Source: Polytrichum commune (taxonomy: Eukaryota; Streptophyta; Polytrichopsida; Polytrichales; Polytrichaceae). From it: DNA of 64,000 nt. The notes under the pieces were generated by a model. It did no database searches. It saw only the letters and a program-made list of their open reading frames with translations, and was not told where the DNA came from. Shown here in pieces: positions 19,521 to 52,314 of the stretch. Numbering within the stretch: position 1 is the first letter of the stretch; each line of letters opens with the position of its first letter. Location of the stretch: contig OX485809.1 in assembly GCA_950295325.1 (NCBI GenBank), positions 21,454,001 to 21,518,000 of the forward strand, written 5' to 3'. Made by a program: the position numbers and the translations under genes.

Positions 19521-20807
19521 TTATTCCTTCCCTCGAAATGCCAAATTGTTCCTCGAGAATGTCTGTCTTGCGATTGATTCGATCTCTGTTGGGATGTGAT
19601 AAGAGGCTACTAAATTCAACTCACACTTCTTTGCAATGAATGGATAATTCGCTTGCTCTCTGGAAAAATTATTGCTCACAACTCCTTCTTCCTTCCCTCG
19701 AGTGGTGCCTAAACCCTCTCTGCTACTGAGAAATTCCTTGCGGAGGTATTTGTTTCCAATTCTACAGCTCAAAAACAATCACGGTGAAAGAACACTGTGT
19801 AGGTAGTACGAAAGAGACTGTCTCCCAACAGAAATTTTAGTAACGGTTCTCTCTCCCTCGACATGAATTCAGTTCAATTTCATTCCCCTCGAGCGATGCC
19901 CAAATCTCTTCAAATTAGCGACACATTCATGTGAAATCCTGCCACAACATATAAAAATTCAATGAAATTCTGGCCCAAATCTGAGTCCGATGACCATAAA
20001 CACTTGCGATGATGGAAACCAATAAAATGGTGCTGTGGGTTCAACGCCCACTTGCGAACTTCTTTGAACCTGTTGCGATGATGCTGCCTTGCATTTGCAC
20101 TTGAGTCCTGGATACGCATTTCAAACGAGGATCTTCGATCGCAGAAACAAATGCGGCGCATTTTGGATGATATAATTTAGTGGAAAGTGGGGTTCATCCA
20201 TGCGTTACAGGTGGCGTGATTAGGGCATGCTACGTGGACGGTATCATGCTACCCCACGTTAAGGAAGGGAATATTTTCGTGTCAACTGGAAATAGACAAA
20301 CCTTTCCGTGGAAGATATTACTTTGCCTTAAGCTTAAGCTTAATGGTAATTCCGTTAAGTACCCGCTGCACAAGCCCGTTTACCACTTCGTCACATGAAA
20401 ACTCCCAAGATAACACTAAGCTTACCAGCATACAAGTACTAGAGCAAAAGTCCGGTCTGCACATCTGAAAATTTTGTAAATCTACCACTATGGACTTTGT
20501 GAACATATAAGTAACCTGATACTGTCTTATATGTAAGTTAGCCTGTAGTGCAAGTAAAACTCAACTACTTCGTGATTGTGGCAAAATTAGGGTAAAGGTG
20601 AGGAGGATTTCTGATGGTCACGTATCAAATTTTGAGGAAAGGGTATGGGGTTATGTTGTGGTTTGTCACTTTCATGCTTGTCTTTGTTCTCCTGCTGTAT
20701 TGTTGGTGCAATGGAGGCTGACCTTCCGAGCTTGCAGCCTGATGACAGTGAATTGTTTCCCTCTGAGGGCATTCTTGACATGAAACACGGGTGTGACTGC
20801 AAGTGGA
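19521..20807. other. Upstream region of the hydrolase gene and intergenic DNA
   Basis: Presumably holds promoter and 5' leader of the minus-strand hydrolase gene. I see no TATA motif I would defend. From about 20645 a plus-strand open frame (ATG choices 20645 and 20711) runs into the LINE insertion site and stays open across it when the LINE is removed. I do not recognise its product. Confidence 0.4.
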
Positions 20808-20823
20808 TGACAAAGAGAATGAA
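20808..20823 (+). repeat. LINE target-site duplication, 3' side
   Basis: TGACAAAGAGAATGAA, identical to 28161-28176. It marks the 3' end of the minus-strand LINE. Confidence 0.93.
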
Positions 20824-20887
20824 GAAAAGAAAAAGAAAAAGTAACGCCCGCACATTGTACCGGCGTGAATGCGAGCCCGTTGTCCGA

Positions 20888-20918
20888 ATGCTAAACACGG
20901 CGGGCCGTGTTGTAGCAT
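20888..20918 (-). other. Hairpin in the LINE 3' UTR
   Basis: ATGCTA-AACACGGC-GG-GCCGTGTT-G-TAGCAT folds into a 14-bp stem with one bulge. It lies 65-95 bp from the element's 3' end, where LINE RNAs can carry the structure recognised by their reverse transcriptase. That role is inference. Confidence 0.6.
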
Positions 20919-21014
20919 GGGGAGTTATGCCTCCGTTAGGAGGTGGGCTCTGAGAAAAAGAGAAAGAGAGAGTATAGTGTAAGGAGGCTAGTGTAAGGAG
21001 TGGGGGGAGAGTAT

Positions 21015-22101
21015 TTAGGGGGGTGCTACGGGGTTTTGTTTGTTATCGAGTTTTCGTTTATTTAATATGAGGTATGTGAGATATTTGATGGCATTTTGAT
21101 GTATGTTTTTCATGAGGATTTTGATATTGGATTTTGGGATTTTGAGGTCTTCTAATTTTTTGATGGAGTGTTCGTGTGTGGCACCTCTAACTCCTGCTGT
21201 GATGGTTATAAGAGGGTTTGTTTTCCATCCCTTGCTTTGTATAGTGCTGATCAATGGGTCGTATTTGGCATGTTTGTGTGTTATGGCTTATTCTGGGAAT
21301 CTGTCGTGACAGTACGTGAATTCAATGAATTGGATGGTTCGTGCGTGGGATGGTAGCATGGGTGTTGGGGTGTGGTTAGGGGCTCCTATGATACATAGAA
21401 TGTCGGGTCTTAGTCTAGCGTGGCACTGACACCCGGTTTGTGGGCATAGGCATTCAATGAGCCATTCGGGGACTGTTTGTTCTTGCTTGTTGTTGTTGAT
21501 ATTACCTGCATTTGTTAGTGTGTAATATCTGGTGTGTTTGTTGGCTTGGAGTGTTTGGGTGATGAGATGTACTGCCTTGTTGTGGCGTGCTATTCTTAGG
21601 CCCTTTAAGTATGGGTGTTCGCACGTTGAGAGTAGGTGTGGCCATGTGTCCCTTTCATTTTTACGGCATAATGTACAGTTTGGGTTTTGAAATTTGAGGG
21701 GCCAAAAAATATCCTTTCTATGGTTACCCATGTATTGGGCATATTGAAATTTTAAAGTTTGGGTGATTTGGGCGTCCGTTATTTTATTGTTTTTCCAAAA
21801 GTGGTTGGAGAGTTTGTGGTTTATTTGGTCGTTGGAGAGCCATTTGTCTACATATGGGTGTTTATGTTGGGCCAACCTAATTTCTTGTTTTTCGTGTGTT
21901 TTTGTGATGAATGTGTGCAAGTTTCGGATTGCCCCATTTCGTGTGGCTGTGGGACAACTTGTTAGCCAATATGGTGTAGCGTGTGTGATGTGTATATGGG
22001 GTGTGGGAGTGGGTTTTTCTATGTTTGTGCCTTCGTTGGCTAGCGCATCGGCTATTTCATTTCCTTTGATGCCCGTGTGGGCACGTACTTTATGTATAGT
22101 A
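21015..22101 (-). pseudogene. LINE: RNase H tail, CCHC finger and restriction-like endonuclease
   Basis: This frame begins with the last RNase H motif (VRAHTGIKGNEIADALANEG) just after a frame change at about 22089. It then has a CCHC finger CTLCRKNERDTWPHLLSTC (C-x2-C-x9-H-x4-C). Next is a PD-(D/E)xK endonuclease core: RPDIL, then IQFIEFTY, then after one in-frame TAA (21288-21290) KHAKYDPL and GWKTNPLITITAGVRGA, closing near KRKLDNKQ. The order CCHC, RPD, E, K, KY, GW, G.RG is that of R2-type site-specific LINE endonucleases. The nonsense codon separates the catalytic E from the K in this copy. Confidence 0.85.
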
Positions 22102-24591
22102 CTAGGTGTGGTGTTAGGTAAATTTGGCGTACTATGGCGGCTATGAGGATTTTGTCCGGGTGGTGGTGTTGTGAGGTTGGGTGTTGTATATGATTACTAA
22201 GTAGATATATGCTATTAAGGCTATCTGTGAAGATGTGTGTTTCGACTTTTGTGACTTGAATGGTTTTGACTGCTATGAGTATAGCATTTAATTCTGCTCT
22301 AAGTATGTTTTGATATCCTGGTAGGCGTTCTGCTATACGGATGTTTGTGTTGGGGCTATATACTCCTGAACTTGCGATGTCACCCTCTATTTGACCTTCA
22401 GAGTTCTTAGTTGGTGGAATAAATGAGCCGTCTGTGTACATGCATTGCTGTGGGTGGAATTTGGGGGGGTGTTGGTGGTAGTATTTAATGGGGAGGTTTG
22501 ATTGGGGGATTGTTGGCGGGGGAGGGATGTTTTTTATGGGGGCGTTTTTCCATCTGTTTGAGAATTTGATGTGGTAGTTTGGCGTTGTGGGTTTGATTGG
22601 GAATGTGTCTATGGGTGCGTTGATGGTATGTTCTAGTACTTGTGCGAGGTCTTGTGGGGTTTTTAGGCTTGGTGTGAGGTTGGCGTGGTTATGTATACAT
22701 AGTATTGTTGTGAGCGAGGGTTCTACGTATTGGTAATATTTTGGCCATTCCGGCGTAGGGTTATATAGTATGGTATGCGGAGGGATGGTTGTGAGGGTAT
22801 GTATGTCGCCACTTGTGGTAAGTGGGATTTGTTGTGTGGTCCAGTCGTTATGGTTGATTATGAGTATGGTGATTGTGTTTGAGTCTTCTTTGGCCGCCAT
22901 TCTAGCCCAGTGGATGGCTTCAATGGTTGTTTTATGGTCTGTGGGGTAGGCTAGACCAATGCCTTTCCATCTAGATATTTGTGCGTGTCCTAGGGAGCCG
23001 AATATTATGTCTCGGTTATGGGGTGAGTGATATTGTGTGAGTTGGGTGGGACATGTGAGTGGGGATGAATAGTAGGAGTGCGTGATTTTGAGGGAGTTTA
23101 TTAATGTTGTGATAATTGTCGGGTGTATTGTATGGTGCATGTTTTGGGGTTGTATGTTTTTTGGCTTTCTTTTGGGGAGTATGGTTATGTATCTTTGTAT
23201 TAGCCAAAGTATTTCAGTTTCAAAGTTTTGTGGTGGGGGTTGGAGGGCGTTTGTAGTTTGTGAGAAGTGGTAGTAAGAGAATTGGTTCCATAGCCATTGT
23301 AGCCTTTCTGTAGTGATGGTGGCCATGTAGTTTCCTTTTTGGTCATATATGTTGGCTTCGGAGTTTTGTATTTGGATGGTTGGTTGGGTTACTTGAATGT
23401 CTTTATCCGGGTTGCATTCTTGTATGGATAATTTTAGGTTGGTGATGTGAAGAGGGGGGTGTATGAATTTGTTGTCTTTTGATTGTATGTGATTGAGGCA
23501 ATTAGCGTATGTGTGGGTGGCTAATAGTTCGGCTTGCTTTGTGTGATATTGTGTAATACGTAGTATGTTATGTTCTAGAAGTATATTATCCGGGTGTAGT
23601 AGTTCTACCTCACTTCTCCATTGTTGTGTGGTGCCTTGTGGGGCTTGCCATTGGCAAACGTAGTTCGTCCTTATTGCTTGTGCACCCCATTTGTCTTTTT
23701 TGGTGGAGGTCTTTTCTTTTATTATTGTTTGGATTGCTTGTCCTAGGGGGGGAATATTTATCATGACCTCGCTTTGTGGTGGTGTTTGTTGTATTGGGTT
23801 TGTAGGGTTTGTAGGTGGGGGGGGGGAAATATTATTGTTGCTTGTTGGAGAGCCTCTTTGATGGTTTTGGGTATGTGTTTGTATGTGGATTGAAATTCCT
23901 TCGGGGTTAGTATGGCTTTGGTAGTGGGGTTTTGGATTTGTGTTAGTGTGGTAATGCCGTATATGTATAATTTGTCTAGATATTTTTGGGTCTTGGCTTT
24001 GGATATATCCGTTAGGGTGTTATAATTTGGGTTGGTTTTCCAAGTTCTTTCTAGTGATGTTTCTTTGATGGGGAATGCTTGGCTTGTGGAGTAGACGTGG
24101 ATTTCGTATTCTCTTTCAAGGAGAAAGAGTGTTCGGGCTATAGGGGAACGGACACATGCTTGTTGTTTGAGTTTGGGGAGGTGTCGGGCCCCACCATACT
24201 TGGCCGCTATATGTTTGGTTAGCCCTTGGTATATAATACCTAATTGACCCGGGTCGTTAAGTGCTTGGATTAGTTGTTGTCCTATGCATCGGATGTAGTC
24301 GGGTAATAGGGAGGTGACGTTAATGCCAAAGCTCTCTTGTGGGAGGTGGGTGAGAATGTTGGCCGAGCTTTTAGGGATGTTGCAAATTTCTTTGGTTAAT
24401 TTGCTAATGATTTTGTCTAATTTTTTAATATCCGATTTGGAGAATGGGACGGAGTAGTAGGCGTATGCTATTCGCGGTTTAATGACTGTATTCAAGATTT
24501 TGATTTTTTGTGTGAGGCTAGCCGGTGAGGTAGTTAGGAGTTGGCTTTGTTGTTTGACTTTCTTCATCGTTATTTTTTTTATAGGTTCCAT
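22089..24591 (-). pseudogene. LINE: RT thumb/connector and RNase H
   Basis: Two adjoining frames. 24591-23761 (276 residues) continues the RT: KPRIAYAYYSVPFSKSDIKKL is the usual 'linker/thumb' block of LINE RTs. 23764-22089 overlaps it by ATGA (stop/start), then carries connector sequence and an RNase H domain: MYTDGS (Asp), ILRAELNAILIA (Glu), HIFTDSLNSIYLL (Asp). The last Asp/His motif lies in the next frame (see 21015-22101). The overlap at 23761-23764 could be a frameshift or a real reinitiation point; given the other lesions I favour frameshift. Confidence 0.82.
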
Positions 24592-27034
24592 TTGAGTGAT
24601 GGTGTGAGGTTTATTCCTAAATACATATATGGTTCGTTTTGGGTAAGAATGGGGAAATTTTGAGAGTTGTAGGTGATATGTTGTGATTGGATGTATGCTT
24701 TGAAGGTAGAGGGTTTTAATTTAGATTTATTAGGGCATCCGGTAATGACACATTTTGATAGGTTGAGGTCCATGTGGGACCATTTTGCGAATTTTTGGAG
24801 TTTTGTCACTTGTGGTTGAATGTGTAGTATGTTGTCCGTTATAATAGCTAGGTCATCCGCATATGCGGTTGTGGTGCATGTGGCGGAGGACGTGTTGAAA
24901 TGATAACCTATGTTATCTTTCTCGAGCCATCTTAGTAGTGGTTCGAGAAAAATAATAAAAAGGTATGGGCTAAGGGTGTCCCCTTGTATGGTCCCGCGGC
25001 TTATTTCTATTGGGGGCGTCATGCCAAAATGACTCCCGGTGAAGGATGTGGTGGAGTTGGTGTAGATATGCCTACGATTTCTACCGCGTCTAATGGGTAG
25101 CCTAGGTCCTCCATTATGGCTAGGAGTCTTGCGTGGTCTATAGAGCCGAAGGTATTTCTAAAATCTATATAAGTTAAATATATGTCTTTTGTGGTTAGTC
25201 TTGCGTCTTCTAAGGTTGCTATAATCGTTTGAATTCGTCTCGAGGTATTTCGTTGTGGTCGAAAGCCTTCTTGGCTAAAGTGTAGTAATCTATGTTTTTC
25301 TCCGTAGCTTGTTAGGAGTGATGTTAGTGTACTAGTATATAGTTTATAGATTGTATTAGCTAGGAAGATTGGTTTATAGTTGGATATGTGGGTGGGGTCG
25401 TCTTTTTTGTGTAATAAGATGGTCTTACTATGTTTCCAATATTGCGGGATTGTTCTTTGTTTGTAGCAATGTTTGAAAAATAGGTATAGGAGGTTTTGCC
25501 ATTGTGTTGGTAGTGTTTTAATGATATCATTTGGGATATTGTCTGGGCCCGGGGCTTTCCCTTTTGTTAGGCTTTTGACACAACAATCGTAGACTTCTCT
25601 AGTGAATTGATTACTTATTTGTGTGTTGGGGTTGCCTCGTTTTTCTAGAATGATTCCTTGATGTGAGTGCCATGGGTATTTTCGTACTGCACATATGCAC
25701 GTATTAGGGTGGTCCGTGGTGTCCTCACATAGGGGGTCTTGTCTTTGAAATGAAGTTTGTTGGGTATGGTATATCTCCCTAGCTATCTCGGCGGATTTGG
25801 TGAGGATTTGACATTGGGGGTTTTGTATACAATCGAGTGTGTTGGTGGTTGTTGGGTAGAATATTCTTTTGTGGATGATTTTGGGTTTAGTGTTAAGTAG
25901 GATTCTATATTTGTTAATGGTTGCTTTGCAATTAAGTGAGGTTTGTTTGGTTATGATTTTGTGGGCTTCTGTCTTCGCGTGTTTTCCTATGGTGGCTAGC
26001 TGTGCAATCCATGTGTGTATTTCTGTGGGATGGGGGGGTAATGGTGGAATATTGGGGTTTCGTATTAGCTGAAGGTTTGTGATATCTGAGTGGTTGTGTA
26101 GTTGTATATGGGGGTAGTGACATGCAGCTCTTATGGCTTTGCGGGTGTTGTGGTATATTTTCAGTTGGTGCTTCCATTTATTATATTGGGTCCTGGAGAG
26201 GAATCCTCCTTGGGATTTTATCCTATTTGGTAGTGGTGGAGTGGGGTGTGACATGCATGTCTGTTCTATGCATTGACTAAGGGAGTTGGTAATTTCTTGG
26301 AGTTTGAGTTGTGCGTCTTCCCATTGCGTGAGCGTAAGATGTTCCTGTTGGAGTATTTGTGTAAGGTTTTCTATTGCTATATTTTGTTTTCCTATAAAGG
26401 TTGTTTGTAGGTTTTGTAGGTTGTTAAGGGGTATAGGGTATATGATACGTGGGATGTTTATGGGGGTGGTGGTTTCTTTGATGACTATTGTATTGGGGGC
26501 TAGCTGTAGTTGGACCGGGTAGTGATCCGAGTTTTGGTTTAAGTTGGTTAGCGTATGGCTATGAAGATTGGTGATATTGGGGTCGTTGGTGTAGAAGCCA
26601 TCTATATGGCTAGTTGCTGTGTAGTTGTGACCTCCTTGCCTTGTGAAGTTTACTGGGTTATGGACTACTTTAAGTCCGGTGTTTTGTATGAAGCATGCCC
26701 ATTCTTGGTCATCTGTATTAGGTGGGGTTGTAGTGTTATTATTGGTTCTTCCTTGTAGTAATATATCACGGTTAAAGTCTCCGGCTAATATGATGGTGTA
26801 TTTGGGGTGTTTTACTATGATATTTTGAATTTGGTTTTGGATTTCGGGTATTAGGTGCTCATCTTCTAAGTGTGATGGCATGTACATGTTTAGGATGATT
26901 AATGGTGTTAGTGGTTTGTTATTGATTATTATGGCTTGTAGGTAGGGTGAGATTGAGCTTGGGGTTGGTATTTTGGTGATGTTTTCGTTTGTGTATATTG
27001 CTATGGGTATCATGGCGAGGATGCCACCTCTAGC
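24579..27034 (-). pseudogene. LINE: APE C-terminal half and reverse transcriptase core
   Basis: Frame 27034-25019 continues the APE nuclease after the in-frame TAA: ARGGILAMIPIAIY, LNMYMPS, AGDFNRD and NSDHYPV, the metal and base-contact motifs of the exonuclease-endonuclease-phosphatase fold. The RT follows: GKAPGPDNIPNDIIK, SNYKPIFLANTIYKLY, SQEGFRPQRNTSRR, and motif A TYIDFRNTFGSIDH. After a frame change near 25066 come SRGTIQGDTLSPYLF and the catalytic AYADDLAIITDN (about 24866), then MYLGINLTPSLKWN, where the frame shifts again near 24588. All RT motifs can be read, so damage is recent or slight. Confidence 0.88.
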
Positions 27035-27958
27035 TTATGTGGGGCCCGCATATTTATTATGTTTTTGTGGTGTGGTGTTGGAGTTGTTGTATATGATTTT
27101 GTATTCGTTTAGTTGGCGGTCTATGTATGATGTGGATTTTGTTTTTGGGATTTTGGTTTCTTGGATGAGTATAATATGGGGATTGTTGTGTAGTGTTTGG
27201 GTGAGTTCTTGGATACCGGGTAGGCTAGAGGTGATACATCCGGTGTTCCAAGTGATTATTTTCAGGGTGTGAGTGGTTGGGTTGTTTTGCCTATTGTGGG
27301 TGTGTGGGGTATCATAGTTAGGTTTATGTATGTTAGGTTGGTATCCTGTTATTTTTTGGGTGCATTTAGTTAGTTCTTGTATTATTTTGTTTGGGAGGTG
27401 GTGTATTTCATTTTGTAGGGTTGCTGCGGTTATGGGTACTCCCTTAGCGATTTTGTCGTTGATGATGGAATAAGCTTGTGGTATAGTGGTTATTGTTGGA
27501 GTATGTATGTTAGTTTCGTGGGATATGTGTGGGTGCGTATTAATTGGCATTTTTTGTAGTCGTCTTAGGATGGTCAAGTATCTTGGGTCAAGTTTGTTAG
27601 TCATTTTTTTATTACATATTTGTGGTAGTGGGTTATATGTTATGATAAGAGCATATATTTGGTGGTGGGTGGGGTAGTTTGAGAGGAGTGAGGAGTGGTT
27701 TTTTAGGTGTGTTAATTCTTGGGAGTCGGAGGTGTTTTGGGGGTTGGGGGTGTTGTTGTTAAGGTGGGGTTCAAATAACTTTTCAAGGTGGGCGTATTGA
27801 GGTTTGAGTGATAGGGTTTTTGGTATAAAGTATTGTTTTTGTCTTTGTGTGTATTCTTTGGGAAGGTTTTTGAGGATGGTTGAGATCGGTCCCGGGTTTA
27901 GTTCAATGTCTCCGTGTAAGAGTATGAGTGTAGAGTTATTCCAAGTGTAGTATGCTAT
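27035..27958 (-). pseudogene. LINE: N-terminal region with 2A and start of APE endonuclease
   Basis: Open from an in-frame TAA just upstream of 27958 down to the TAA at 27035-27037, with no ATG before 27604. At 27956-27958 the codon is ATA in the context ACC-ATA-GC, so the start may have been a now-mutated ATG (inference). The 2A motif falls about 14-24 residues in. A Pro/Asn-rich segment of some 200 residues follows, then APE motifs KIITWNTGCI and ILIQETKIPKTKS. The stop after KYAGPT cuts the nuclease before its catalytic half. Confidence 0.8.
27887..27922 (-). other. 2A-like ribosome-skipping motif
   Basis: Translates as LLHGDIELNPGP, matching the 2A consensus D-(V/I)-E-x-N-P-G-P with the usual preceding Leu-rich stretch (TLILLHG). 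2A peptides make the ribosome skip the Gly-Pro bond. They are known at the N-terminus of some non-LTR retrotransposon proteins (trypanosome L1Tc, sea-urchin elements). The reading frame is the same as the APE domain downstream. Confidence 0.85.
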
Positions 27959-28160
27959 GGTTTTAATTTTTGGTTTTTTTGTGGTGAGTGTGTGTTATGT
28001 AGTAGATATTGCCTATATATATTGATATATTGATGGGGATGATTGTGTGGGTTGTGTTGTTGTGGTTTGTGTATGGGTTGTTGTTTATGTGGTATTGGTG
28101 GTTATATGTGTGTGAGGTGGTCTTTCTATGGTTATATTGGTAGGTGTTGTCTATATGTGG

Positions 28161-28176
28161 TGACAAAGAGAATGAA
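28161..28176 (+). repeat. LINE target-site duplication, 5' side
   Basis: TGACAAAGAGAATGAA, exact copy of 20808-20823. It marks the 5' end of the LINE, so the element is probably full length. Confidence 0.93.
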
Positions 28177-28624
28177 TAATATACTACATATCTCCTATAA
28201 GTTTTTGGTGAATGTATATCCACCTATTTTGTCTGTTAACAAGCACCCCTGGCAGAATTTGAGGTTCTTCACGTATCATCTTATCTGCAATTATTTACAA
28301 CCTTCACAAGAAAGAAGACAATATGTAACATCTGTGAGTCCATTTTTCAAAGATACAGCAGGATCCCACTTCCTTCTGACCAATACGCGAGTCACAAAAC
28401 TTCAAAGGCCCTGATCAAACTAAAGAGGTGTCCGAAATTGAAATATTTACTTGATTGCTGGTAAGTTTGAACAAAAACTGGAGATCTGCTATCTATGATG
28501 GGCCCATATTACACAGATCAGTTTACGAGATGTGCTCTGTTTTGTGATTAATGGATGGCTACAAAATTTTACTAAGAAAGAGAACTTAGATGTACATACA
28601 ATGGTAGGAAGAGCACTACAAATC
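28177..28624. other. Intergenic / 3' UTR region of the DUF1279 gene
   Basis: Holds the right half of the plus-strand open frame split by the LINE (stop at 28412-28414), and probably the 3' UTR of the minus-strand DUF1279 gene. No conserved domain. Confidence 0.4.
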
Positions 28625-37170: not shown

Positions 37171-37584
37171 GGCTAGACCTCAATTTCTATGTAATGTTTA
37201 TTCAACCATTTTAGCCTTACATTGATTAATGCATTGTAAACTAATGTAGAGAAGGACATTAATGTTAGTTATACCGAACATGGCTGAAAGTTTTAGAATT
37301 TCCTAGTTTTAGAATTTCTTACAGCTGGTTCTTAGTATGCACCACTTCTTACATAAATGTATATCTCTTGAAATCCATCTCTAATGTCTAAACACTCCAC
37401 GGCTTTATGACTATCACATTACTGCTTCTAGTAATATAGGACAACTATGTTGCAGGCCAATAACTATACGTAGTAAGCGTTAGTGACTACGGGTAGTAAA
37501 AAAATACGACAATGGCCATTATTGTATATTGGCTACAGTGATACTTCACCATGTGGACGTATACGCTTTGGTTTAGGTCCCCTC

Positions 37585-38430
<846 letters not shown>

Positions 38431-48670: not shown

Positions 48671-48816
48671 CGGATCGGAGAGTCGAAGGATTCATGAAAA
48701 CGAATCAGTCATTGTTCATTAGGCATGAGCGGATCGGGAGGGTCGAAGGACTTACAAAAACGAATCAATCGTTATTCAATTAGGCATGAGCGGATTGGGA
48801 GGGTCGAAGGATCCAG
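48671..48816 (+). repeat. 60-bp tandem repeat overlapping the end of the methyltransferase gene
   Basis: Units start at 48671, 48730 and 48791 (spacing 59 and 61 bp) with CGGATCGG.AG.GTCGAAGGA, AAAACGAATCA.TC.TT and TTAGGCATGAG. The third, partial unit is the last few codons of the gene. The first two lie in its 3' flank and repeat the stop codon region. Confidence 0.8.
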
Positions 48817-49850
48817 TGTTGCCCATCCGGCTCAACGCGCAGATTCTTGATTTTTGCAAACAAATCCACAGCTCGCCGGACACCCCGCTTGTCAGCCACG
48901 GTGCAGTAGTCGTGTCCGAACATAACCCCGCCGGGGCGAAGCAAAGAGTGAGCAATGTTGATGTCGGACCAGGCGGAGTGGAAATCATGCGACGCGTCCA
49001 CTTCGATCAAGTCTGCGTAAATCCCCCACTGGCAGAAACTCGCCAACGACGACACCGTCGCGAACGGGATGGGCAAGATGGTTAGGGTTAAGTTTCGATG
49101 CACAACATTCTGCATAAATTGGTACATCAACATCACGTTTCCATTCTGTTGCTGAATGTCCTCAAATGGCGACGCTCGAAATCCCGGCCACCCTCGGAAG
49201 TCATCCACACACAAGATGTCGGTCTTGAATCCTAACTCCTTCGCAACTAACCCTAAGTGTGTTGCAGAAGCACCGAGAAAGCTTCCCAGCTCAAAGATAA
49301 CCCTTGGCTTCACCTCCTCCATTAACCTCCGAAACACGGTGGTGTTTGATCCCCACCCCCGGATCCTCTCCTTTTGCAGAAGGCTCTTCACATGTGGGGG
49401 AGGGAAATTCTCAAACGGAGAAACTCCATCATACAGTTTGTTAATAAGGAACTTTCGGATGTCTTCCTGTGGCAATGTCTCCTCCTTGCAGGATGTGTGG
49501 AAGGTGATTAAATCTTTGGGAAGAAGCTCATATCCTGGATGTGGTGGCTTTGGGGGTAACATATTGATGACCTGCTTTGATGACAAATTTTGGCATGACT
49601 CTGGATTTCCAACCTGTTGTTGCACTTGTGCTACTTGCTGCAAGATTGCTGGTTGTGATGTCTGTTGTGACGATGTTTTAGTTGCAATTGGTTGGGATGA
49701 TGATGCTTTGATGGTGGCGAGGAGAGGGAGACCAGGAGATGTCAGCAATCCTAAGAGGTAAGAGATGACTGCCACCACAAAGAGTGATCCAATATTCATG
49801 CCTCCTGGCCTTTGCACTCCACCCACAACTTGGGCCTTCCACCTCATCAT
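48780..49850 (-). CDS. Membrane-anchored methyltransferase-like protein (Methyltransf_24/CmcI type)
   Basis: One uninterrupted exon of 356 residues from the first in-frame ATG (MMRWKAQ) to TAA. The N-terminus has one hydrophobic segment (about residues 20-45, GSLFVVAVISYLLGLL), so it is probably a type II membrane protein of the secretory pathway. A Ser/Gln/Thr-rich stem follows. The catalytic-type domain starts near residue 150: VIFELGSFLGASATHLG (motif I), DILCVDDFRGWPGF, ADLIEVDASHDFHSAWSDIN, SLLRPGGVMFGHDY and GVRRAVDLFA. This layout fits the Rossmann-fold SAM-dependent Methyltransf_24 / cephalosporin-hydroxylase-like group. Substrate unknown. The C-terminus overlaps a tandem repeat that has duplicated its last codons downstream. 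A 5' intron is possible but not shown. Confidence 0.85.
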   Translation of the reverse strand: MMRWKAQVVGGVQRPGGMNIGSLFVVAVISYLLGLLTSPGLPLLATIKASSSQPIATKTSSQQTSQPAILQQVAQVQQQVGNPESCQNLSSKQVINMLPPKPPHPGYELLPKDLITFHTSCKEETLPQEDIRKFLINKLYDGVSPFENFPPPHVKSLLQKERIRGWGSNTTVFRRLMEEVKPRVIFELGSFLGASATHLGLVAKELGFKTDILCVDDFRGWPGFRASPFEDIQQQNGNVMLMYQFMQNVVHRNLTLTILPIPFATVSSLASFCQWGIYADLIEVDASHDFHSAWSDINIAHSLLRPGGVMFGHDYCTVADKRGVRRAVDLFAKIKNLRVEPDGQHWILRPSQSAHA

Positions 49851-52314
49851 CGTGGTCAATCCCACTCAGCCTGAGATTTTTCTAAAATCTCATAATGACC
49901 AGTCCTGCAACCTTCAGAAACATCACCATCAACCTTCAGCCTTGAATTATCTCGTCAAGTTGATGCATCACCCTGTGAAATGCAGTTTATAAGCTGTATA
50001 GATTCTGCAAAGAGATGATAACGGCACTGTGAACTCTTGAGAATTGGGTTATTTAGGATGACACATAGAAACAATTGAGAGGCACAATTGCTCATCGCAA
50101 GAATATGGACATGTGTCTAATATAGGTGGAATCTTATAATAGAGGAATTTTAACCTTGATTTAAGAAGGTGTTTGTGGTCACAGCGATAAGCCAAGTCAC
50201 TCAATAGACCTTATTCAGATGAACGTATTGCAGTTGACAAGGTGCTCTAGAATGATGTGCCTTGAAATTCAATCCACTTCAGAATATTAGAAAGGTTATC
50301 CAGATTTCTTAAATATCAGAAAGGTTGTCCAGAATATTAGAAAGGTAAAGCCAGCTGGTTTGAAATTTTGCGCAATGTGTTCAGGAAACCTGGAGGAAAG
50401 CACATACAATTGCTGTGCAAAAAATGCAGATGAATCCGATAAGGTCTAGATCCAGAAAACACAACAAGAGCTTAGCAATCCGTATGCAATGCAATTGAGG
50501 ATTGGTTAGGAGGTAAGAGGAAGTTCTGTAGGACCTCTACAATTTACTATCCATTTGTAGGAAGCATGATTCACTTAAACAAAAATCCCAGGTGGACCTA
50601 CAGGACTCATAACTAAGCACAATTTACCTTTACTTTAGAAACGGACACCTGAAATCATCACTCACTTGGTGTAAGAAGGGGTGGTGACAAAGATCAACAC
50701 AGGCCAGATTTGTGAAAACGTCAAGGAGCAAGAAACCAAGCGAGTATACTAGCCAAATCCAAACTAGTTTTCGAGTATTACTACTCACTGTAGCCACATA
50801 GTTTCCTCTTCTGAAACCCTTCACTATCCAAAGAAATTGAGAAGAGGCATTCTAAAATTTGGCAGGTATTCTTCAAGAAGACTGAACTGAACTATATAAA
50901 TTCCCCACCGCACTATTTGACATAACCAAATTTCTATCAACAAGCTTACCAAGAAGTCGAATCTGTGAGTACGTCCCTTATCTCGGAGCACCAGGAGCAC
51001 TTAAAAAGCAGAACTAAACAGATGACTGTCAAGTGTTGTTCTTAGGCAGGGAATAGTTGTATGGTAAGAGGAAAACTAAAGAAACCTGGAAATTTCAGGA
51101 AGATGCATAGCCCGACCTAAAGCAAGACTTGATCTCTCAAGTTATCTAAAAAGTATGAAATGGAGGAATTGACCAGCCTTATCGCCACATCAAAAAGTAC
51201 CGAGCTAGTGTTTTCAAAGCCAGAGGGACAAGGTTGAAACCTACAACAAATCCGCCCCAAAAGAATTCACAGAAAGAGGAATTCACCGCCTGCCACACCC
51301 TAGAGATCTCAGATAGTTGATAATGGGCCCGATTTACAACAATTTAGGGTATGTGAACTGGCTAGCCCGCACCATCTAGTGCAATAATGAAATCCAACAT
51401 GTCGATTTCGGGCTATAGCACCTCCCATGTCTTGTAGAGAGCTAGTAAAATAGTGGAGGGACTCCAGGGTGAACGTTATAACGTATTCGGGACGTATTTA
51501 AAGCAAGAAATCGAAAGAAATCTTGTGCATCATCGCAATCCGGCTCAAAGTGTTTCGTGGTGTGAGAACGACTCAAGCGGGTGTCGAAGAGACTTACAAT
51601 TGAAAAAACGCCGAAATTTGGCACTCAAGCCTACGAAGCTCAGATATTACAGTCACTGATCCGGCTCCATATCTTCTGATGATCTGCGTGACCACCATAA
51701 TACCCAGACACCGTCTTAATTACTCCAACAATCATCACGACACATTCAGCTCAAAGATGACAGACCACAGCAATCGATACACAAATACTCTGACAGAGTC
51801 GAAGACGTCACTGTAACCCCACTGTAACTCTTTGTTCGACAATTCAAGCTAGATTGGCCCTGGCTGCAACAAACGACAACCTAATCAAACTAGTACAGTG
51901 CAAACTCCACTCCAAGTTGCCAATAATCAGATCAACTCACTTAAATCGACCATTCCATAGTAGTGATGCAGCAGTGCTCGACATGTCAGCCACTGCCAAC
52001 GCTCAATCTTTGGTCTAGGACTGAGCTTATCAGACCACCACAGTGCAGTACTACTAGGGATTTGGAGCTGTAAATTATCTGTGTCTCCGAGTGAGTGAAG
52101 TTTCTTCCAAATCTTCAATTCTTCCGATGAATCTGCACTCGGTGATGGATGATCACAGACACATACTTACCATGTCACATACTTACCATGAATCTGAGCT
52201 TGCAAATGGGCTTCAGCTTCAGTGACGCAAACTACATTGTCGTCGTGGCTAGGTTAGGTCTGGCCCACCGGCTCGTCAAATAAGAATCAGGTAGACAACC
52301 CTTAATATTCGGTT
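49851..52314. other. Upstream region of the methyltransferase gene
   Basis: Presumably 5' leader and promoter near 49851-50100. The rest has no recognised gene. 51400-52200 has a higher GC content and short open frames on both strands with no domain. Confidence 0.35.

Follow-up and report, generated by a model that had tools for sequence, protein, structure and literature searches.

Does a retroelement of a land plant encode two unrelated endonucleases in one protein, and which other domains does that protein carry? The question is raised by a 64,000-nucleotide stretch of the Polytrichum commune genome (contig OX485809.1, positions 21,454,001 to 21,518,000; hereafter the window, with its own numbering), in which a long interspersed nuclear element (LINE) occupies positions 20824..28160 of the minus strand. 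A preliminary description, made from the sequence of the window, had proposed that this LINE encodes an apurinic/apyrimidinic endonuclease-type domain (APE), a reverse transcriptase (RT), an RNase H, a CCHC knuckle and an R2-type restriction-like endonuclease (RLE), in this order. With moderate confidence we read the copy as a member of an abundant and recently active land-plant LINE lineage with two open reading frames (ORFs), in which ORF2 encodes a multi-domain polyprotein, and as a probable relative of the Dualen/RandI elements. The ORF2 polyprotein is ordered as leader, 2A, APE, RT, chromodomain-like domain, PCIF1/CAPAM-like pseudo-methyltransferase, RNase H, CCHC and R2-type RLE.

The copy in the window is a dead, 5′-truncated LINE of 7.3 kb from which the 5′ part with ORF1 is gone. 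It is delimited by homology with four relatives (L039-L042) and by a target-site duplication (TSD), whose 5′ copy at 28161..28176, TTCATTCTCTTTGTCA, is repeated exactly over 16 bp at 20808..20823. All features of the element itself lie on the minus strand. The 2A/StopGo motif YTWNNSTLILLHGDIELNPGP (27887..27949), identified from the sequence and a genome-wide pattern count, stands ahead of the main frame and of the APE. The APE (26507..27270, approximate boundaries mapped from L041) displays ITWN, QETK, MYMPS, GDFNRD, HIDGFY and SDHYPV in the family alignment A6 and matches Pfam Exo_endo_phos_2 at 1.6e-8. The RT with AYADD (24514..25564, boundaries also approximate) was found by Pfam RVT_1 and by profile A5 against the PDB, and it is followed by the chromodomain-like domain (23504..23725, YVCQW...W..E.ELL) and the PCIF1/CAPAM methyltransferase-like domain (22529..23383), in which AYPTD is found in place of the catalytic NPPF. 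Then come the RNase H (22029..22447; YTDGS, AEL, TDS, RAH..GNEIAD), both pieces of which match Pfam RNase_H, each below the cut-off, the CCHC knuckle with an RHN motif (21580..21677) and the RLE (21050..21479; C.C....C.C, RPD, E, K..KY, GW, GVRG). The 3′ untranslated region holds a conserved RNA structure (20835..20950), made of a closing stem, two inner hairpins and a terminal hairpin, and the copy ends with a (TTTTC)n tail (20824..20842), whose repeat number varies among copies and beyond which the flanks are unrelated. The damage amounts to two in-frame stops, one in the APE (27037-27035) and one in the RLE (21290-21288), and four frame changes, among them two in the RT, near 25.1 and 24.6 kb, and one near 22.1 kb that splits the RNase H. 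The domain signatures that had been claimed are present in the window frames, including the RNase H between RT and RLE; that list did not include the 2A, the structured RNA of the 3′ end or the two domains that resemble a chromodomain and PCIF1. The coding strand of the LINE is extremely A+C-rich, unlike the rest of the window, with plus-strand GC skew up to 0.57 and AT skew of -0.41 in 2-kb steps.

We searched the host assembly (407.8 Mb in 64 contigs, the window being on contig C7) for relatives. The C-terminal protein query of family 1, to which the window copy belongs, scored at least 138 places (from 5,423 candidates at first look), the longest open frame being 2,638 aa, and a C-terminal query of a second family scored at least 120 places (5,924 candidates). 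Six copies were read over all or almost all of their length, four from family 1 (L039-L042) and two from family 2 (L058-L059). Four of the six (L040, L041, L058 and L059) run from APE to RLE within one open frame, and these uninterrupted frames of 2,305-2,625 aa join APE, RT, RNase H, CCHC and R2-type RLE; L039 likewise has a single frame, but part of its RT region is deleted, and the frame of L042 begins just ahead of the APE. The intact copies that the preliminary description proposed to look for therefore exist in two families, and its central claim of a LINE with two unrelated endonucleases holds in their frames. Recent activity of family 2 is probable, as L058 and L059, each with a frame of 2,625 aa, share 99.36 % identity over 8.5 kb; the sequence common to both is about 10.7 kb long. 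Downstream of the RT, fragments of family 2 aligned with L041 are about 34-49 % identical, with two pieces at 22-24 %, and in two alignment regions (C-terminal and chromodomain/PCIF1-like) the identity between the families is 33-44 %. ORF2 is preceded in longer copies by ORF1 of 596 and 747 aa from stop to stop, which is homologous across the two families (30 % over 402 aa) and had no Pfam match above the cut-off.

The proposed land-plant host was confirmed by TTTAGGG telomere repeats at the start of contig C1, four SAM_LFY matches and 28 NAC-domain exon matches, 14 per domain half, which we read as 14 genes. At 70.15-70.19 Mb of C1, element matches of equal score lie on opposite strands (70160189 - / 70188262 +; 70158287 - / 70189519 +), which suggests an inverted duplication. 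Moreover, PCIF1 matches at C3:874345, on a chromosome, and at C24:11558 agree in score and in open frame length (833 aa), so the small contig C24 may duplicate sequence of C3.

The RLE passed the model search proposed for it, in that the domain was recovered by fold, though not with a significant E-value by sequence profile. The RLE has no Pfam family, and a Pfam search of its stretch returned one unrelated weak match; when single sequences of the RLE or of the PCIF1-like region were searched against the PDB, nothing meaningful came up. All six Foldseek matches at E<=0.001 of the AlphaFold model built from the family alignment are R2 proteins, and by this predicted fold the C-terminal domain is an R2-type RLE. 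Upstream of it, C122, C125, H135, C140 and R152-H153-N154 of the CCHC and RHN motifs are invariant across 24 copies, and the RHN aligns with RHNK of R2Bm. The RNase H of the unbroken relative L041 matches Pfam at 4e-15 and keeps the histidine of KVRAHTG. The APE profile had a weak match to ExoIII in the PDB (22 bits), and NCBIfam returned generic RT, ExoIII and RNase H matches only. Two alignment rows, L046 in A1 and L011 in A2, were left uncleaned and begin with out-of-frame residues.

The canonical DNA pattern of the 2A was found at 255 sites in the genome and at none in a reversed control. The consensus D[VI]ExNPGP is matched by the window copy, L039 (GDIELNPGP), L042 (GDIETNPGP) and L058 (GDIEPNPGP). 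Counting by eye, we placed the nearest in-frame AUG 31, 43 and 52 codons ahead of the 2A in L040, L041 and L042, respectively, and in L041 a frame change parts the 2A from the rest of ORF2. The region of the 2A and the main-frame start is duplicated in L040 (1212-1800, plus strand), giving two 2A-like motifs, GDIQPNPGP upstream and GDIHPNPGP. The leader of family 2, which is long, contains the short peptide ASAYRPRH twice before the 2A of L058. A natural 2A motif in an element of a plant genome would deserve attention, given that a 2026 report states that there is no evidence for natural use of 2A by plant viruses (PMC12846837).

The domain downstream of the RT has a chromodomain fold as judged from profile matches and from structure prediction (AlphaFold, Foldseek), its Pfam score being under the cut-off. 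For the region that follows, the best 150 of 697 candidates across the genome were scored with PCIF1_WW and all 150 were above the cut-off. Within the part of the open-access literature that we covered by titles and beginnings of abstracts, we found no report of a chromodomain or a PCIF1 fold in a non-LTR (long terminal repeat) element. The capture of enzymes has a precedent in the cytosine methyltransferases described in retrotransposons of charophytes and dinoflagellates (PMC5890265).

The 3′ end carries a covarying RNA structure in family 1. In 22 ends of this family we found a common structure of 33 pairs, 12 of them changed on both sides, compared to a mean of 4.6 in shuffled alignments and reached by none of 500 shuffles; none of the 500 reached four of the five measures, and 18 reached the fifth (further pair types). 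Nine ends of family 2 have the same arrangement, with the closing stem, two inner hairpins and then a hairpin opening near ATTCACGCCGG, and show 43 pairs with 8 changed on both sides (counted without a shuffle control). For positions 20500-28500, Rfam returned nothing up to E 1. The tails are simple repeats and not poly(A), (TTTTC)n in family 1 and (TATC)n in family 2. We found no short interspersed nuclear element (SINE) with the same 3′ end among 9 places fetched of 40 scored; all 9 are LINE sequence, with the 5′ border in reach for five. In L021, a second, degenerate 3′-end-like sequence (GCTCACATTCATGCCAGTAC...GCGTTAC) was seen by eye about 50-140 bases beyond the point where the element stops; it may be an older copy or reflect nested targeting.

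We give about even chances to the element belonging to Dualen/RandI as an ordinary member, one that the description from green algae already covers, with the additional domains either already present there or being small add-ons. According to the 2005 study, Dualen reportedly contains a cysteine protease and an RNase H. We obtained no Pfam match to a cysteine protease in the window pieces (E<=10), the relatives (E<=1) or three ORF1 pieces (E<=1), which could speak against ordinary membership. What favours it is the combination of APE and PD-(D/E)XK endonucleases, the published hallmark of Dualen/RandI (PMC4640811, PMC3636483), as well as the RNase H of RandI (PMC4640811) and the non-A simple-repeat ends in 8/8 families of green-algal RandI LINEs (PMC3747384). 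SINEs sharing RandI 3′ ends are also reported.

Clearly less probable, in our view, is a separate dual-nuclease lineage, in which an R2-like element gained the APE independently or an APE LINE gained the RLE. The position of the RNase H between RT and RLE would suit such an origin, and so would the best PDB matches of the RT profile A5, R2 of turtle (143.9 bits) and R2 of zebra finch (135.3 bits), which rank above L1 ORF2 (about 87 bits). However, R2Bm (84.8 and 80.5 bits) scores no better than L1, and a ranking by scores is not a phylogeny. Judged by sequence scores, the RT seems to fit a place near the divide between RLE and APE elements. Neither the RLE nor the RT alignment picked up a relative in scans of viral contigs.

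It is also rather unlikely that one nuclease is vestigial and the APE alone, or the RLE alone, is acting. The insertion pattern looks APE-like, which speaks for this possibility. Both borders could be inspected in 14 copies of family 1 (window, L021, L022, L025, L030, L031, L033, L035, L036, L063, L064, L068, L069 and L071), and 7 of them have TSDs of 11-16 bp, that of L022 with a mismatch. L038, which has a 5′ border but whose locus does not include the 3′ end, was left out of this count; in L059, a 12-bp repeat was rejected as a TSD because it is located within the element. The 3′ flanks of the 27 copies shown are mutually different (L038 having no flank), so, unlike R2, the element does not insert at one site in 28S rDNA. 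We read the dispersal of the copies, their frequent 5′ truncation and the TSDs as signs of target-primed reverse transcription, staggered in the manner of APE. Against a vestigial nuclease, the catalytic-type motifs of both APE and RLE are kept in the two families, and the ratio of nonsynonymous to synonymous substitutions (dN/dS) is low. By the Nei-Gojobori method, on six pairs among L039-L042 with saturated pairs excluded, dN/dS was 0.10-0.17 for APE (5 pairs), 0.07-0.14 for RLE (6 pairs), 0.02-0.08 for RT (4 pairs), 0.04-0.08 for RNase H (6 pairs), 0.12-0.25 for the chromodomain-like domain (6 pairs) and 0.16-0.26 for the PCIF1-like domain (6 pairs); these values are rough because dS is mostly above 1, and all tested domains are still far below 1. 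The family-2 pair L058/L043 was saturated at the RLE. We read the low values as selection, in an active lineage, on both nucleases and on the extra domains.

For the PCIF1-like domain we consider it improbable that it is an active adenosine N6-methyltransferase. The match to the CAPAM fold would support activity (the top five Foldseek matches have the PCIF1/CAPAM methyltransferase fold, over about 190-200 residues), as would its dN/dS of 0.16-0.26, and motifs of the ASP and FGS type are kept. Against activity, the catalytic NPPF is replaced, aligning with AHPHN in family 2 and with A[FY]PT[DNH] in family 1, so the domain is probably a pseudo-enzyme.

The weakest alternative is that two separate elements, a LINE with an APE and one with an RLE, became neighbours by chance. 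Contig C1 has 54 2A sites, of which at least 35 are followed on their own strand, at the expected distance, by a PCIF1 or RLE match and none has such a match on the opposite strand; at least 17 of 46 PCIF1 matches have an RLE 0.5-3.5 kb downstream on the same strand and none on the opposite one, and 14 complete triples of 2A, PCIF1 and RLE have near-constant spacing; all these counts are among the PCIF1 and RLE matches listed, so misses are expected. As APE and RLE share one open frame in other copies and the triples are so regularly spaced, a chance juxtaposition, for which we found no supporting point, is rejected as extremely improbable.

Several observations weigh against our reading of a recently active multi-domain lineage. 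The AlphaFold models of the RLE and the PCIF1-like region have mean pLDDT (predicted local distance difference test) values near 60 each. Against PDB sequences the RLE reached E 0.44 and the PCIF1-like region E 0.56 and 1, none of them significant, so the former claim rests on fold and the latter on fold and Pfam; the superposition on CAPAM is loose, with a root-mean-square deviation of 6.2-6.5. Histone reading by the chromodomain-like domain is doubtful, because among what we take to be the three aromatic-cage positions of a chromodomain only the W of YLCQW, common to all nine covering rows of alignment A2, resembles a conserved cage residue. The 2A variants GDIHPNPGP (L040) and GDVKPNPGP (L041) lack the E of the consensus, and no AUG was found from the upstream stop to the 2A in the window copy or ahead of the 2A in the open frame of L039. 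TSDs were absent from 6 of the 14 family-1 copies, with L071 as a further, doubtful case, and from both family-2 copies (0/2); in L030 and L036 the border is probably misplaced, since flank sequence is shared.

If the multi-domain reading holds, the parts could work together as follows. The 2A, by its sequence, would free the leader during translation, and the 3′ structure would bring the RNA onto the RT and the CCHC/RLE region. The APE would make a staggered first nick, from which we propose that the TSDs and the dispersed insertion follow; reverse transcription would be primed on the simple-repeat tail, and the RNase H would clear the RNA. By analogy with R2, the RLE might bind the target DNA, cut the second strand, or both. 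The chromodomain may anchor the complex on chromatin, and the pseudo-methyltransferase may grip the RNA, perhaps at its capped 5′ end. We tentatively propose, as a possibility that we rate as rather low, that a LINE lineage of land plants survived with its two ancestral endonucleases and added to them a domain that reads chromatin and a dead cap-methyltransferase, the latter as a receptor of the RNA 5′ end. If so, one polyprotein would read chromatin through the chromodomain and target DNA through the RLE, and would also recognise its own RNA at both ends, by the 3′ structure and the capped 5′ end, with the 2A switch setting the fate of the leader.

Elsewhere in the window, a long CA/GT microsatellite (37477-38303) gives rise to mechanical His-Thr repeat open frames, and a 361-aa frame on the minus strand (48780-49865) is apparently a host gene. 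Its motif FELGSFLGASA is one that we take to be class-I methyltransferase-like.

Compared with known systems, the element shares with Dualen/RandI of Chlamydomonas and related green algae the presence of APE, RLE and RNase H in one element and the non-A simple-repeat tails, according to published descriptions, and differs by its land-plant host; none of the Dualen literature found concerns a land plant by its title. The 2A, chromodomain-like and PCIF1-like domains are observed in the Polytrichum element. By its domain content, set against published descriptions, we take the element for a probable relative of Dualen/RandI in a land plant, one whose polyprotein is unusually elaborate. With R2 (structures of R2Bm, R2Tg and R2Pm) it has in common the C-terminal CCHC, RHN and RLE fold and the RT similarity, but it has in addition an APE, an RNase H, TSDs and dispersed insertion sites, and the RLE is not its sole endonuclease. 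In contrast to L1 and I-type APE LINEs, it possesses an RLE. Like the APE-type LINEs that carry 2A peptides (Odon 2013, by title), it has a 2A on an APE-RT element; that title does not mention an RLE, which is found in the Polytrichum element. The likeness to the cap-specific adenosine methyltransferase PCIF1/CAPAM lies in the fold and the motifs kept, unlike PCIF1/CAPAM, however, the domain has other residues in place of NPPF and sits inside a retrotransposon polyprotein. Chromoviruses, Ty3/Gypsy elements with a chromodomain, are likewise retroelements bearing a chromodomain-like module; it is located at the integrase end of these LTR elements, whereas in the Polytrichum LINE it lies between RT and RNase H. 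Dual-endonuclease LINEs serve in arguments on how APE replaced RLE during LINE evolution (PMC4640811). As unbroken dual-nuclease copies exist in two families of the Polytrichum genome, the role of the second nuclease becomes testable.

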